Assembly (NCBI GenBank): GCA_937995825.1
Contig: CALKJO010000002.1
Location: forward strand, 186,001 to 250,000
Reading direction: 5' to 3'
DNA from: an uncultured Anaerolineae bacterium
GTDB taxonomy: Bacteria; Chloroflexota; Anaerolineae; Aggregatilineales; Phototrophicaceae
DNA length: 64,000 nt
Shown piece after piece: positions 6,274 through 44,374 of the stretch. Made by a program: the position numbers and the translations under genes. Position 1 is the first letter of the stretch. Every line of letters begins with the position of its first letter. The notes beneath the pieces were generated by a model. That model was not told the origin of the DNA. It saw only the letters and a list, made by a program, of their open reading frames with translations, and ran no database searches.

Positions 6274-7485
6274 ATGGCATCGCTAGAAGTCGTGCTGATC
6301 ACATTTGGCGCGTTCGCCCTCGGCTTTGCGACAGCCTATCTGCTGCGCGGCGGGCAAATTCGCAGCGCCGAACGGCTTGCCGAGCGCTTGTTCAGCGACG
6401 CGGAAGCGCGCCGGCAGGCGAATGAAAACGCTATGATGGAGACTCTGCGGCATCAGTTCGGCAGCCTCTCGATGCAAGCGCTCCAGTTCTCGACCGAGCA
6501 GCTGGTCCGCATGGCGGAGGAGCGGCTGCGCGCTCAGTCGTACTACCAGTCCGCCGATCTGGACGCCAAAAAACAGGTCATCGACGGGCAGTTAGAGCAG
6601 ATGAACGCCCGCCTGTCCGAAGTCCAGATGATGGTAGCGGAATTTGAACGCACCCGCGCCGAACGGCTCGGCGCGCTCAGCCGCGAGCTGCAAGCACTGA
6701 TCCACACCTCCGGACAGATTCAGCGCGCCCTGGCGGACAACCGCTCGCGCGGACAGTGGGGCGAGCGCATCGCCGAGGACGTGCTGCGGCTGAGTGGGTT
6801 CATCGAGGGCGTTAACTATGCCCGTCAGCGCACCTTTCAAGATTCAGACGGAGCCAGCCGCCCCGATTTCACCTTCTTTCTCCCCAACGACCTGATCCTC
6901 AATATGGATGTCAAGTTCCCGCTCGACAACTACGCAGCCTATCAGGCGGCGGAGACCGAAACTCAGCGCGATTACTACCGCAAGCAGTTCCTCAGTGATG
7001 TCCGCGCCCGCATTTACGAAGTCGGCGTGCGCGGCTACGTCAGCCCGGAGCAGAACACCGTGGACTGCGCGCTGATCTTCATCCCCAACGAGCAGATTTT
7101 CCGCTTCATCTATGAGGCGGACGCGACGATCTTCGATGAGGCGATGGCGCGTAAAATCCTGCTCTGTTCGCCACTGTCGCTCTTTGGCGTGCTGGCGATC
7201 ATCCGCCAGTCGGTCGAGCAGCTTCGCCTGCAGCAGACCTCGCGCGACATTCTGCTGCTGCTCTACGACTTCCGCAAACAGTGGAATGAATACACCAAGC
7301 GCATGGACGATCTCGGCAAGGCGATCAACCGCGCACGCGGCGCATACAATGAGATCGTCGGGCGGCGCAAGCGCGCGCTGGACAAGTCCCTGCGCAAAAT
7401 CGACGGGCTGATGGCGCGCCAGTCCGATGCCGACGCCGATGATGATGAAAGTTACGATCAGGGCAGGTTGTTCAACGATTGGTAA
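6274..7485 (+). CDS. rmuC: RmuC-family protein (DNA recombination-associated)
   Basis: 403 aa. An N-terminal membrane segment (~5-22), a coiled-coil stretch (~60-145), then the RmuC core with GQWGERIAEDVLRLSGFIEGVNY, RPDFTFFLPN, MDVKFPLDNYAAY and a late coiled-coil/C-terminal acidic tail. RmuC proteins have a PD-(D/E)XK nuclease-like core and are linked to limiting DNA inversion/recombination. D and K of DVKFP fit the nuclease-like site. It starts four bases after the receiver-kinase stop, so it is co-transcribed with the sensory genes; that partnership is unusual. The hydrophobic N-terminus suggests membrane anchoring. Confidence 0.88.
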   Translation: MASLEVVLITFGAFALGFATAYLLRGGQIRSAERLAERLFSDAEARRQANENAMMETLRHQFGSLSMQALQFSTEQLVRMAEERLRAQSYYQSADLDAKKQVIDGQLEQMNARLSEVQMMVAEFERTRAERLGALSRELQALIHTSGQIQRALADNRSRGQWGERIAEDVLRLSGFIEGVNYARQRTFQDSDGASRPDFTFFLPNDLILNMDVKFPLDNYAAYQAAETETQRDYYRKQFLSDVRARIYEVGVRGYVSPEQNTVDCALIFIPNEQIFRFIYEADATIFDEAMARKILLCSPLSLFGVLAIIRQSVEQLRLQQTSRDILLLLYDFRKQWNEYTKRMDDLGKAINRARGAYNEIVGRRKRALDKSLRKIDGLMARQSDADADDDESYDQGRLFNDW

Positions 7486-7668
7486 CGATTGATAAAAGCA
7501 GGGAAACAGTCTTGAAACACGCTGATGAAACCATCACCAAGTCCATCAAATGCCCGATGCCGCATGACTGCACCCGCGCCTAGGCTTAAAACCCGGCGTT
7601 TGCGCCGCGCCGCGACTCTCATGCATAATGAGTGAAAATTGAGATGCCCACAAAGCAGGGGGGATGGG

Positions 7669-10600
7669 ATGACAAGCCGCCGAATACTCTGGATGACGCT
7701 GCTGCTGGGCGCTGTGCTGGCGCTGGCTCCATCGCTGCTGCGTCAGCCCGCTGCGCTGACTCACGCTGCACAAACCGCGATGATTCAAGTCCTCGATGGC
7801 GCAACGGTCGTCCCCAACAGCGGCAGCGTCCCCGGTCTGCCCATCGATTTCCCGCCGACCACTCCTGGCGTCCCCGTCGTCAAAGACTTCACCGTCAACA
7901 ACCTAGGGACTGCCGATCTGTTCATGGCGAATCTGCTCCCGCCGCCGGGCTTCTCGGCTGAATTTGTCAGCTCAGGGACGAGCGCCTCCGTCCCGCCAAG
8001 CGCCAGCATAACCCTGCGCGTCACCTGTCTGGCGGCGGCTCCGGGAACCTATGACGGGCTGGTCTCGTTCAACACCACCGATCCAGGCAATGTCACCTTC
8101 ACCTTCACCATCCGCTGCGTGGTCGCTGTCATTGCGCCGCCCGCCATCGCCGTGAGCGCGAATAGTACTCCTGTGCTGAATGGGCAGATCGCCCCGGTCG
8201 AATTTTCGCCCACTTTCATCAACACCCCGGTCAACCTGACCGTGACCCTGACCAACACCGGCGCGCAGCCGCTCAACGTCAGCAATCTGTCCGTGACCGG
8301 CGGCGTATTCAGCGGCAGCTTTAGCAGCAGCGCGCCGAGCATCACCATTCCGCCGAACGCTTCATCATCGCTCAGCTTACAATGCCTCTCTGCCATCGGC
8401 GGCACTTTTGACGGCGCGGTCACGTTCACTACCAACGATCCTGCCAACCCCACCTTCACCTTCCCGATCCGCTGCGCGGTGAGCGGCGCGGGTCCTGATA
8501 TTGAAGTCCTGCTCGGCTCCACCCTGATCACCAACAATCAGCCGACCCCGGTCGATCTCGGCGCGACTGCAACCGGATCGATCCTGCAGCGCCAGCTCAC
8601 CATCCGCAATATCGGCAGCGCAAATCTCAATCTGACCGGGCTGGTGATCGCCCCTGCGGACCTCTTTCAGGGCAATTTTAGCGCTGCGACCGTCCCGCCG
8701 AGTCAGTCGATCACCCTGACTCTCGCCTGCTTCTCGCAGATCAGCGGAACCTTCACTGGAACGGTCACTTTCCAGTCCAACGACCCCGATGAGTCGCCGT
8801 TCAGCTTCTTCATCCGCTGCACCTTCGAATTCCAAACGGCAACTCCCACGCCCGACATCTCCGCAACGCCGACACCAACGTCAACGTCAACATCAACGCC
8901 AACCACCACCCGTACCGTCACGCGCACCCCGATCCCGACGGTCATCCTGCCGACCTCATTTTTGACTCTCGTCAGCCCGACGCCGTCGCTCGTCCCAACC
9001 TTCACGCCCTTCCCGACCTTCGTCTTCACGCCCTTCCAACGGACGCCGCTGCCTGCGCCTGCCTGCGCGCGCCAGGCTCCGGGGATTCCCCGAACGGGCG
9101 TGATCGTGCTGGCGAACCGCGACGGCGTCAACGTCCGCACGCTGCCCGCCATTGGCGCGCCGGTGATCGGCTTCGTCAACGCGGGCTACACCGCTGAAGC
9201 CGAAGCCCGCAGCGGCGACCGCCAGTGGGTGCGCGTGCAGTTGGGTCCAGGTCAGGAAGGCTGGATCGGGCTGGCAGTGCTGACCGTGCTGGAGGGCAGC
9301 ATCGAATCGCTGCCGGTCGCCGATCCGCGCACCATCCCCTACGGCGGCTGGGAAGCGCCGCGCGCCGGCTTGAGCGAAGCCACCAGCCCCATCACCGGAC
9401 GGCTGGCGCAGAGCGGCTTGCGCGTCCGATCCGGTCCCAGCACCAACTACGCCATCCTCGCCAACGCCCCGCGCTACAGCATCATGCCGATTGTGGGGCG
9501 CACCGACGACAACCGCTGGGTGCAGGTCATCTTTGAAGGCACGCTCGGCTGGGCGGCGGCGGAATTCTTCGAATTCTCTTCCGCGGACGTGTTCAACCTG
9601 CCGATTGACGGCATCTGCGCCGACGCCGTGCCGATCTCCGACACCGGCGACATCGACTTTTTCGACACGCTCCGCCTGCTGCTGGCGCGCCTCGACCTGG
9701 CGCAGCCCTCGCTCGATGCCATCCGCTCGATCTGGACCAATGTCGTCCTCGGCAGAGTCGCCCAGTGCGGCAGCTACCCGATCCGTCCCACCGATTACAA
9801 CATCCCGCAGGCGCTTCTGGCGGCCTACTTCGACCGCCTCAGCTCGATTGGGAATGACTTCAATACGGCGATGGGCGCGCTGCGCGCTGCCATTGAACTG
9901 CTGATCCAAGCGTGCCAGTTCCCGCAGCCGAGCGCCGGCTCGGTCGGTCAGGCGACAGTGCAGCAGGCGCTCGACGCTGTCAACCTGGCGGACTCGCTCT
10001 TTGCCTCCCTGCGCCGTCGGATCGCTGAGCTGCTTCCGCCCGATGAGATCGGCGAGGATGAATGCCTGTTCGTCTATCGCGGCAGCGCCGCCGTCGTCAA
10101 GCGGCTGGATGTCGGTCAGCCGCGCAACGCCCAGATCACCACGCGCCCACCGCGCTATGTCGTCGGCTTCTGCTTCGATGCCCCTGCCGGTCAGTCCTTC
10201 CGCGTCGAACTGCTCCGCCTCAGCGGGAATGCCGCGCCGCGCATCACCATCAGCAGCTTCGACAACCCGACCGACTTCATCGCGCAGCAGACCGTCCGCG
10301 ACACGCAGGAGTATGCTTCCGTCCAGCCGATCCTGATCCCACGCGACGGGCGCTATCTGGTGCTGGTCAGCGATCTCAATCTCGCCAGCCGCATCGGCAG
10401 CGGCGACTTCGTCATCCTGCTCACTAACATCACCGGCATCGCGTTTGCCGCGCCAAGCTTGTCGCTTGATCCGCAGACCGGGCAAATCCTGGTCGATCCA
10501 GTTCCACAGGCATCGATCCCGCAGCAGTTGCAACAGCAGCCCGGTCAGCCGGGTCAGTCCGTCGGAACCTGCCCCAATATCACCTTCACCTGCCAGCAGC

Positions 10601-41522: not shown

Positions 41523-42809
41523 ATGGTCACCCTCATTATCGGGGCAGGGACAGCAGGGTTAGTGGCGGCGCGCGGCTTACATGATGCAGGTTCACCTGTG
41601 ATCGTGCTGGAAGCCCGTGATCGCTGCGGTGGTCGCGTTCACACCGACCGCGCTTTCGCGTCTCACCCGGTTGAGCTGGGCGCGGAATTCATTCACGGCG
41701 ATCTCGCCCCGACCTGACTGCTGGCGCAGCGGTTCACGCTGCGCACCCTCCATTGGACGAAAACCGATGAGTCGCTGGTTCGGCTGGCGGATGGGACGCT
41801 ACGGACGATGGCGGAGGCGCGCCGGCTTCACCCGGATTTCGACATCACGCGCAGTTGGAATTTTCCGCCGGAGCTGCTCGCTGCGCACCCGATTGCGCCG
41901 TTCGATCAGCCGCTCGACGCCTATCTGCGCCGCCTCGGATTCAACCCCGATCAGCTTGAGTATGTCCGCCGCAGTTACGCCAACGCCGCCGGCGAGTCGA
42001 TCGACCGGCTGAGCGCGCGCGCTGCGCTGGACGACTGGGCGGATACGCGCTTTGGCTCTGGGGACTACCGCATCCTTGACGGCTACGACACGATTCATGC
42101 GCGCTTGGCAGAGGGGCTGGACATCCGCTTCCATGCCGTCGTCACGGAGATTCACTGGAGCAGGTCTGGTGTGCGCGTGCTGACGGCGGATGAGCGTGAG
42201 TTTGAGGGCGCGAGTCTGATCATCACGCTGCCGCTGGCGGTGCTGCAAAGCGGGCATGTCCGCTTTGAACCGCCGCTGCCCTCGGACAAGCAGGCAGCAG
42301 TTGCGGCGCTCAACATGGCTCCGGCGCTCAAGCTGATCTACCGCTTTGGTGAACCGGTGCTGCCGCGCGAGATCGCCGCGCTCTACAGCGCGCAGAGTCC
42401 GCCGATGTGGTGGACGCCCTCGTATGGGCATGACGCGGTCGATGGGCAGGTCTGGACGGCGTTCGTGACCGGCGATTACGCCCGTCAGATGCGCAGTCTG
42501 GGCGAAGCCGGGGCGCTCGATGCCGGGCTGCGGACGCTGCGCGCTGAGACTGAGCGCGGCGATCTTCAACCTGTGTCCGCGCGCTGGATCGACTGGGCAA
42601 GCGACCCGTTCGCGCTCGGCGGCTACAGCAGCAAACCGCCCGGAGCCTACGGCGCGCGCGCGGTGCTGGCGCAGCCGACTGAGGATGTGCTGTACTGGGC
42701 GGGCGAAGCGACCGCCTCCGGCGATGCCGCCGGCACGGTTCACGGCGCGTATTTGTCCGGCGTGCGCGCAGCGCAGGAAGTGTTGGCTTTAGGCATTCAG
42801 CAGGGCTGA
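41523..42809 (+). pseudogene. FAD-dependent amine oxidase interrupted by one in-frame TGA
   Basis: One continuous frame of 429 codons, except TGA at codon 65 (41715-41717). Upstream: GAGTAGL dinucleotide fold, [17 protein letters not shown] (FAD-binding Glu/Arg-Gly-Gly-Arg) and [14 protein letters not shown]. Downstream: LLAQRF immediately in frame, then a flavin amine oxidase core ending YWAGEATASGDAAGTVHGAYLSGVRAA. Relatives usually carry a Trp a few residues after the AEFIHG motif, so TGA probably replaces TGG. No frameshift, no other stop, and coding composition is unbroken after the TGA, so it is either a recent nonsense mutation, a consensus error or read through. Restart at 41808 alone would lack the FAD-binding fold. 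Confidence 0.8.
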
Positions 42810-42857
42810 GACCCTGATAATGCAGTTATCTGTTGGCATAGAAGGAGTATCCTGATC

Positions 42858-43619
42858 ATGGTCGCGTACACGACCGAACAACACGATGGTAGACAGACCG
42901 CCGCGACCTCAACGGCGCGGCAGATCGTCATTCGGAACACCACCCCTGAGCATGTGCAGGGGATGGATAAGCTGTCGCAGTTGGTTTACAACTACGACCA
43001 TTTCTCGCGTGTCGATGAATTTCTCAGTCAGATTCGCATCTTCCCTGAAGGGCAGTTCGTCGCCCTTGATATGACCATCCCCGATGCGCCGCAGGTCGTC
43101 GGTTACACGGCGTCCATGCGCATCAACTTCGATCCCGCTCGCCCGCGCTTCAAGCCCTGGGCGGATGAGACGGGCTACGGTTGACTGACCACCCACAACC
43201 CACACGGCGAGTGGATGTACGGCGTGGAGACATGTGTGCATCCCGACTATCGCGGGCAGGGCGTCGGCGGCAAGCTGATGGACGCGCGCTTTACGCTGCT
43301 CAAACGCCTGAATCTGCGCGGCATGATCGCTGGCAGCATGATCATGGACTATCACAAGGTCGCCGATCAGATGTCGCCGCAGCAGTATGTCCGCGAGGTG
43401 GTGGCGGGCGTCCGCTTTGACACCAACCTGTCCAAGCAGCTCCATAAGGGGTTCAAGGTGCTGCACTTGATCCCGGAGTACGAATATGACCCCCGCTCGC
43501 TCAACTGGGCGGTGGCGATTCGCTGGGACAACCCCGATTATCGACCCGAATACAAACCGCAGACGCGGATCGCGCCGTTCATTCAGCCCGCACAGGGGGC
43601 GCGCCTGGCGGCGCGGTGA
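42858..43619 (+). pseudogene. GNAT-family acetyltransferase-like protein interrupted by one in-frame TGA
   Basis: 254-codon frame with TGA at codon 109 (43182-43184); AAGGAG precedes ATG 42858. Before the stop: FPEGQFVALDM and VVGYTASMRINF; after it: LTTHNPHGEWMYGVETCVHPDYRGQGVGGKLMDARF, holding the acetyl-CoA-binding R-G-Q-G-V-G-G-K loop, then the NLSKQLHKGFKV segment. The tandem paralog at 43628 reads TGDGWLTTHDP where this gene reads TGYG-stop-LTTHNP, so TGA stands exactly for Trp. The C-terminal half is intact. Either a recently disabled duplicate or a leaky UGA. Confidence 0.85.
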
Positions 43620-43627
43620 AGGACACC

Positions 43628-44374
43628 ATGACTGCCGATCACAGCATTCAGATCGTGCCGAGCGCGGCACGCTATGCCGATGAGATGGAACGGCTCTACC
43701 GACTGGTCTATGGCGATGATACTCCAGACGCCGCCGATGTCTTCACCGCCGCCATGTTCCGCCGCCACCTGGAGATTTTCCCGGAAGGGCAGTTCGTCGC
43801 GCTCGATACGGCGCTGCCCGAAGGTGAGCAGGTCATCGGGCTGACGTGCAGTATGCGGATCGCCTTCGATCTGGCGCATCCGCATCTAGAGTCGTGGTAC
43901 AAGACCACCGGCGACGGCTGGCTAACCACCCATGACCCAAACGGCGAATGGCTGTACGGCGTCGAGTCGTGCGTCCATGCCGATTATCGCGGGCAGGGCG
44001 TCGGCGGCACGCTGATCGATGCCCGCTTCGACTTAGCGCGCCGCCTCAATCTGCGCGGCATGGTGGCAGGCAGCGCGCCGATGAGCTATTACCGCTACGC
44101 GGACGCGCTGACGATTGAGGACTACATGCAGGGCGTGGTCGAAGGCAGGTACTTCGACATCAACACCAGCAAGCAGCTCCGCAAGGGCTTTCGCTACACG
44201 GGCGTGCTGATCCCGAATTACATCATCGACGAAGAAGCGCGGGGCTGGGGCGCGCTGATCGTCTGGGAGAACCCGTCGTATAGCGCGGCGCGGATGCCGC
44301 AGATGGATGTGACGCTGCCGCTGATGTATTCTGTGACTGTCCGCCCGACTCAGGTGGTTGGACGGGGATTTTAA
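43628..44374 (+). CDS. GNAT-family acetyltransferase-like protein (intact paralog)
   Basis: About 248 aa. Same fold as its neighbour: FPEGQFVALDTALPEGEQVIG, GDGWLTTHDPNGEWLYGVESCVHADYRGQGVGG (acetyl-CoA loop), then ARRLNLRGMVAGSAPMSYY, VEGRYFDINTSKQLRKGF and LIVWENP. The DIN-x-SKQLRxGF block resembles the acetyltransferase half of fused GNAT/carbon-nitrogen hydrolase proteins; here the hydrolase half is absent. Substrate unknown. GTG 43616, overlapping the previous stop, is an alternative start; ATG 43628 has AAGGA close by. Tandem duplication with 42858. Confidence 0.85.
   Translation: MTADHSIQIVPSAARYADEMERLYRLVYGDDTPDAADVFTAAMFRRHLEIFPEGQFVALDTALPEGEQVIGLTCSMRIAFDLAHPHLESWYKTTGDGWLTTHDPNGEWLYGVESCVHADYRGQGVGGTLIDARFDLARRLNLRGMVAGSAPMSYYRYADALTIEDYMQGVVEGRYFDINTSKQLRKGFRYTGVLIPNYIIDEEARGWGALIVWENPSYSAARMPQMDVTLPLMYSVTVRPTQVVGRGF

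Follow-up and report, generated by a model that had tools for sequence, protein, structure and literature searches.

In-frame UGA-CUG in a flavin amine oxidase and GNAT gene pair of Anaerolineae: a conserved site of probable programmed stop codon readthrough

Two adjacent genes of an uncultured Anaerolineae bacterium, one for a flavin amine oxidase (FAO) and one for a GNAT-fold protein (GNAT 1), are each interrupted by an in-frame TGA, and the question raised by this locus is whether the pair is decaying, has been misread in assembly, or is read through by the ribosome. The window, by which we mean the whole 64,000-nucleotide stretch of DNA analyzed, holds the two genes at 41523-43619, with the second TGA ending at position 43184 (Table 1). 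The two sites read ACC TGA CTG CTG at 41712-41723 and GGT TGA CTG ACC at 43179-43190, bearing out the sequence-only reading that both TGAs are in frame and that each is followed by CTG. Termination at the UGA would leave products of 64 residues (FAO) and 108 residues (GNAT 1). The uninterrupted paralog GNAT 2 is 51% identical to GNAT 1 (over residues 22-238 of GNAT 1) and has TGG at the corresponding codon; Trp is thus the expected residue at GNAT 1 codon 109.

Table 1. Features of the FAO-GNAT module, in window coordinates.
Feature	Position	Strand	Remarks
Flavin amine oxidase (FAO) gene	41523..42809	+	428 codons with internal UGA as amino acid
In-frame UGA, FAO codon 65	41715..41717	+	TGG in 48/84 distinct homologous sequences
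CUG directly after FAO UGA	41718..41720	+	CTG in 18/19 distinct FAO-TGA sequences, CTT in 1/19
GNAT-fold gene 1	42858..43619	+	253 codons with UGA read
In-frame UGA, GNAT 1 codon 109	43182..43184	+	Conserved; Trp in paralog
CUG directly after GNAT 1 UGA	43185..43187	+	CTG in 33/33 distinct GNAT-TGA sequences
GNAT-fold gene 2, uninterrupted paralog	43616..44374	+	4-base overlap with GNAT 1 end
GNAT 2 TGG CTA, counterpart of GNAT 1 TGA CTG	43919..43924	+	

Homologs were searched for with FAO in 101 genomes (the source genome and 100 relatives). FAO codon 65 was TGA in 11 of the 20 loci read, from 11 genomes in four genera, and the next codon was CTG in ten of these and CTT in one; the other nine loci had TGG (eight, followed by Glu, Asp, His or Gly codons) or TCA (one). 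GNAT codon 109 was TGA in 25 of 32 loci read, from 24 genomes in six genera (g1, g2, g5, g13, g22 and g24), with CTG next every time, and the remaining copies had TGG apart from single cases of TCG, TAC and CAT. Within the source genus, 14 of the 15 genomes in the set carry the GNAT TGA, the exception (G005) having only a distant homolog. The proteins of TGA loci are about 50-65% identical to the query, and their frames are open on both sides of the conserved in-frame stop. When the relatives' genomes and GTDB loci were pooled and identical neighborhoods were collapsed, 84 distinct FAO sequences (19 TGA, 48 TGG and 17 other) and 102 distinct GNAT sequences (33 TGA, 22 TGG and 47 other, the last mostly distant homologs) were obtained; with 47 sequences having neither TGA nor TGG, Trp is not universal at the GNAT codon.

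The GTDB record titles of the TGA loci name Anaerolineae or Chloroflexi, from many projects, with two exceptions. L214, titled Pleurocapsa minor GSE-CHR-MK-17-07R, and L195, titled Bacteroidetes, hold FAO-GNAT loci of the Anaerolineae type with TGA, and these probably come from a companion bacterium or from mislabeled or mixed records. A search over the class (396 genomes drawn evenly, matches taken at E 1e-40, 52 genomes matching) gave no TGA FAO outside the GTDB family of the source genome among the matches listed; the internal-TGA matches listed were from the source genome (G000), G009, G011 and G016, all of that family, the TGA of G016 being terminal. Several further homolog matches flagged with one TGA, TAA or TAG may likewise be terminal stops. 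One GNAT paralog (C16), flagged with one TGA, was considered as a third case and set aside, as its TGA lies near the end of the match (query position 233) and TGG stands at its codon 109.

The earlier options of nonsense mutations clustering in decaying DNA and of consensus error, along with assembly error, have in their favor that the two TGAs lie within 1.5 kb and that each is one step from TGG. TGA stands at this codon, however, in no fewer than 24 separate genomes from six genera, the frame is open to either side of it and the next codon is near-invariant, and we therefore reject decay and error alike, giving them practically no chance of being correct.

The codon after the TGA was CTG in 51 of 52 distinct sequences (FAO, 18/19; GNAT, 33/33), although the TGA-bearing sequences are related and the 51 are not independent trials; at the sequence level, the nucleotide context beside the stop is thus conserved. 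The share of CTG among Leu codons is 0.53-0.55 in the same genes and 0.547 in a genome sample, and in mostly-Leu columns elsewhere the highest CTG counts were 22/31 (GNAT) and 14/16 (FAO). Because another FAO Leu column reaches 14/16, the FAO context alone is weak evidence. Leu followed codon 65 in none of the 48 FAO-TGG sequences, so that the CUG travels with the UGA; in GNAT-TGG copies, CTG was next in 10 of 22. It is the GNAT counts and the absence of Leu from the 48 FAO-TGG sequences that carry the weight of the case for a constraint on the CUG as RNA. Synonymous sites flanking the UGA are mostly free, apart from a few favored codons, each in one of the two genes, and no consensus fold emerged when the FAO site was searched for shared RNA structure. 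A weak fold at the GNAT site (-1.6 kcal/mol) was judged meaningless; its z-scores are inflated by a shuffle control that does away with the similarity among the sequences. With the flanks mostly free and no fold in common, the signal common to both genes is the hexanucleotide UGACUG.

Because a TGA and a near-invariant next codon have been kept together across many relatives, the readthrough is very probably deliberate, as a means of making two enzymes. Of the options in the sequence-only reading, context-dependent UGA decoding is the one supported by the conservation of TGA over at least 24 genomes and of the CTG that follows it, and we consider programmed, context-dependent UGA readthrough, in one FAO-GNAT module of a single Anaerolineae family (Chloroflexota), to be the highly likely explanation of the locus.

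The FAO tree (83 rows) requires four changes of the TGA label and is compatible with one origin, and the GNAT tree (50 rows) requires six TGA gains or losses, with TGA in both tandem paralog lineages; the UGA has thus sometimes been gained or lost. In two loci (L173, at 6300-7960, and L067), TGA-CTG is present at the equivalent codon of each tandem GNAT copy. The share of A-ending codons in TGA copies was 0.16-0.68 at 12 of 14 conserved Lys, Glu or Gln columns, and the other two columns were nearly all A-ending (0.94 and 0.96). As 12 of the 14 columns mix A and G third bases, a neutral TGA/TGG pair should usually mix too, and we take the pattern to indicate that the UGA is kept by selection.

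The two TGAs also occur together. Among 28 FAO-TGA loci, 26 have a TGA GNAT and two have no GNAT in the stretch, whereas a TGA GNAT accompanies only two of the 72 other FAO loci, both from one genome (G015); some genomes are counted twice in these tallies. In G034 the GNAT codon is TCG, and one TGA lies somewhere in its FAO piece. In a comparison of 21 gene neighborhoods (the window and 20 loci), FAO and the GNATs were the sole genes to recur widely, which makes a linked decoding factor unlikely; other gene clusters are common to at most three loci. By clustering, an ornithine/DAP-type decarboxylase is found in two of the 21 regions, where it lies directly upstream of the TGA FAO (L037, 153-1331; L163, 3683-4858). 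L163 also has a class III aminotransferase downstream of its GNATs (8241-9521).

Elsewhere in the source genome, TGA serves as an ordinary stop. It ends 423 of the 765 called genes in 1.104 Mb, and the earlier exclusion of wholesale UGA reassignment therefore stands. Terminal TGA was followed by CTG in six of the 423 cases, one of which is the GNAT itself; the other five genes have a second in-frame stop 2-15 codons on. Because these five apparently end at UGA-CUG, readthrough may require the hexanucleotide and yet need something besides it, and, UGA-CUG being apparently usable as a terminator, readthrough would be either partial or dependent on more than the hexanucleotide. C was under-used directly after terminal TGA (83/423, against 106-177 at the next eleven positions).

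A homology-free scan was made over 1.504 Mb (43%) of the source genome, in which at least 25 open codons before the stop and 40 after were demanded; sites near gene ends are therefore missed. The scan scored 77 in-frame TGA-CTG sites, and the only two that passed the coding test on both sides were those of FAO and GNAT 1, a result that agrees with the exclusion of reassignment and argues against a generally leaky UGA, for which a genome-wide excess of such sites had been proposed as the test. The corresponding counts were 1/43 for TAA-CTG and 0/35 for TAG-CTG, and over all stops 53 of 9,273 sites passed (27 TGA, 15 TAA and 11 TAG). The 25 passing TGA sites with another codon next are candidates from the scan; of those shown that lack a nearby start codon, most look like gene ends or antisense frames. 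In samples of the source genome and G012, sensitivity was three of four known sites (2/2 and 1/2, respectively), and one of four in a stricter version. In the G012 sample (0.4 Mb), two of 30 TGA-CTG sites passed, FAO and a low-complexity frame that was judged not to be a gene.

If the UGAs are decoded, selenocysteine has to be considered as the residue inserted. A tRNA-Sec match over the cut-off was found in 82 of the 101 genomes, some only just, and in four TGA genomes it lies on the same contig as the FAO-GNAT genes, about 6-25 kb off (G002:C75, G012:C4, G013:C34 and G008:C328). Against this, six TGA genomes (the source genome, G003, G007, G009, G010 and G014; 78-96% complete) had no SelB over the cut-off in a search of 61 genomes, and none of their tRNA-Sec matches, which are read as class-II tRNAs, was better than E 4.8e-8. 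Furthermore, Cys was found at the TGA column in none of the 84 FAO and none of the 102 GNAT sequences, and the FAO site has no downstream fold. The probability that selenocysteine is inserted is, in our judgment, negligible.

A dedicated or altered suppressor tRNA would be a second route to decoding. The D arm of tRNA-Trp(CCA) varies inside the source genus (L265, L266 and L267, from G002, G013 and G004), and, with the assembly at 94% completeness and short of some expected tRNAs, the gene for such a tRNA could be missing. However, no UCA anticodon was found among 41 tRNA matches of the source genome, all assigned, or among 42 of G009, seven of which are contig-end pieces read by eye; both genomes are incomplete. 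The single tRNA-Trp(CCA) gene of the source genome has a 5-bp anticodon stem and G24, where a UGA-reading tRNA-Trp would be recognized by a 4-bp stem or G24A (PMC13092985); no tRNA gene lies in the window, and genes end in TGA freely. The tRNA-Trp gene, whose inspection had been proposed, thus has no recognizable suppressor feature, and we give a suppressor tRNA only a slim chance; tRNA-Trp itself was dropped as the cause because, although the D arms of the genus vary, the source genome's own gene, with a more usual D arm, looks ordinary. Release factor 2 was discarded on similar grounds: prfB, the other gene proposed for inspection, is intact, and the full-length prfB matches listed for the source genome and the family have no internal stop.

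The change might instead be made in the mRNA, if a deaminase acting at GACUG edited A to I and so converted UGA to UGI, which is read as UGG (Trp). Among FAO homologs Trp is the residue seen most often, and a strict short context without structure would suit an enzyme site. The known mRNA motif of TadA differs from GACUG, however, and by analogy with Meiothermus (below), where both TAA and TGA occur, one editing event could not yield one residue; editing appears slightly less probable still than a suppressor tRNA. Lastly, both enzymes could be split, with termination at the UGA, fresh initiation just after it and assembly of the two chains. Weak initiation at the CUG, beside the stop, is conceivable in principle, but there is no ATG, GTG or TTG within 20 codons after the FAO UGA of the source genome, and the first in its GNAT is at codon 10. 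In addition, the TGG homologs of both proteins are unbroken, and it would be odd for two unrelated folds to be cut in this way. We regard splitting as very improbable.

Readthrough would yield two whole proteins, and predicted structures are consistent with this. The FAO read-through model is a confident single fold (pLDDT 93.7) with residue 65 in a helix, and the Amino_oxidase domain (PF01593) matches residues 11-421 (E 1e-62). GNAT 1 is likewise modeled as a confident single fold (pLDDT 85.6), with the block around residue 109 at about 69. The nearest solved relatives of FAO are LSD2/LSD1, spermine oxidase, maize polyamine oxidase and putrescine oxidase, and its sequence and fold both match the PAO/SMOX/LSD group; among its structural relatives are enzymes for nicotine, amino acids and putrescine as well. 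In sequence and model, FAO resembles a polyamine-oxidase-like enzyme whose substrate assignment is putative. The best folds for GNAT 1 were the GNAT-like decarboxylases of CurA, GphF and SxtA (Z 20.5-21.0), other GNATs scoring 17.4 and lower, and spermidine/spermine acetyltransferase (SSAT) was absent from the best 50 matches listed in either GNAT structure list. That the GNAT folds point first to CurA, GphF and SxtA weakens an acetylate-then-oxidise picture of the module.

The FAO family has a further in-frame stop in another phylum. Among 80 GTDB FAO loci, all eight titled Meiothermus (L207, L210, L211, L212, L215, L216, L217 and L218) have a stop at FAO column 190, and four are from cultured strains, M. 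hypogaeus DSM 23238, M. granaticius NBRC 107808, M. luteus KCTC 52599 and M. taiwanensis DSM 14542. The stop is TGA in three loci and TAA in five, the next codon is CTA in six and CTG in two, and GCGATAAA comes after the CTA or CTG in all eight. The frames are open for 182-285 codons before the stop and 254-261 after it; no ATG, GTG or TTG follows for 16-17 codons in six loci and until codon 5 in two. Both Calidithermus loci lack the stop. Trp was present at column 190 in none of 18 aligned FAOs, and the Meiothermus site is therefore not a Trp codon. We consider Meiothermus to have a comparable second candidate site, within this same family of genes but another phylum and in a CUR context; taken together, UGA-CUG in Anaerolineae and stop-CUR in Meiothermus make a stop followed by CU-purine the element common to both phyla.

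This element has a counterpart in mammalian cells, where C after UGA makes a weaker stop and UGA_CUAG is a readthrough motif, carried by OPRL1 and DUS4L; spermidine raised OPRL1 readthrough more than 20-fold, to more than 25%, via near-cognate decoding (PMC9841425). The mammalian motif resembles the Anaerolineae sites in having UGA followed by CU-purine, a near-cognate tRNA and no hairpin, at least none named in the part of that paper drawn on here, and the Meiothermus sites are all stop_CUR, six of the eight being stop_CUAG. It differs in being eukaryotic and in adding a C-terminal extension past a normal stop (PMC9841425), whereas the UGA here lies in mid-enzyme and in bacteria. For bacteria, the influence of the base that follows the stop is treated in PMC5289835.

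By analogy with near-cognate decoding at UGA_CUAG in OPRL1, the UGA-CUG here is probably read by tRNA-Trp(CCA). The ribosome would insert an amino acid at the internal UGA of UGA-CUG; judging by the homologs, this is most likely Trp, with ordinary tRNA-Trp(CCA) as the near-cognate. A fraction of ribosomes would then make the full enzymes, and the others would stop at 64 and 108 residues. The UGA may have been kept because enzyme output should follow the readthrough capacity of the cell, a capacity that would be set by RF2 against the near-cognate tRNA, by polyamines and by tRNA modification. In its use of tRNA-Trp(CCA) to read UGA as Trp, this scheme is like the superwobble described in bacteria for a tRNA-Trp(CCA) with a 4-bp anticodon stem (PMC13092985); unlike it, the source genome's own tRNA-Trp has the full 5-bp stem, and decoding would be site-specific, with no change of code.

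A stop codon that acts as a sensor is not without parallel, as both the bacterial RF2 (prfB) frameshift and eukaryotic antizyme use an internal UGA in this way, and antizyme answers polyamines (PMC5009743); these systems shift to the +1 frame, however, whereas the frame of FAO and GNAT is unchanged. The relatives of FAO, together with the decarboxylase upstream in two genomes, suggest a polyamine feedback; the resemblance of the GNAT to CurA, GphF and SxtA is of no help to that idea. Polyamines would stimulate near-cognate decoding at stop-CUR sites, the readthrough products would be the polyamine-oxidase-like FAO and an acyl-CoA-handling GNAT, and the stop codon would be the sensor setting the level of an enzyme that removes polyamines, as a counterpart of antizyme. 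Such a loop would have arisen twice, at UGA-CUG of codon 65 in Anaerolineae and at UAA/UGA-CUR of column 190 in Meiothermus. Drawn by analogy, it is a tentative proposal that we rate as rather unlikely.

The nearest bacterial report that we found is that of Belinky et al. 2021 (PMC7918605), in which in-frame stops at orthologous positions in bacteria were likewise proposed to be read through. Their example of a Paenibacillus sulfotransferase TAG comprises eight TAG and ten CAG sequences in one genus, whereas several genera, two genes of one module, a near-invariant CUG and a Trp position are involved here. The open-licence literature searched had little to say of deeply conserved readthrough of stops within the chromosomal genes of bacteria, and no report of the FAO-GNAT UGA-CUG was found in it; nor did the papers listed on in-frame stop readthrough mention Meiothermus. 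Genes with such stops would be expected to be annotated as pseudogenes, and a conserved in-frame stop followed by CUR provides a simple signature by which more of them may be found. Because cultured Meiothermus strains carry a stop-CUR site of their own, the idea that bacteria sense their metabolism through a weak stop codon is directly testable, as are the tRNA and the condition that would set the level of readthrough.
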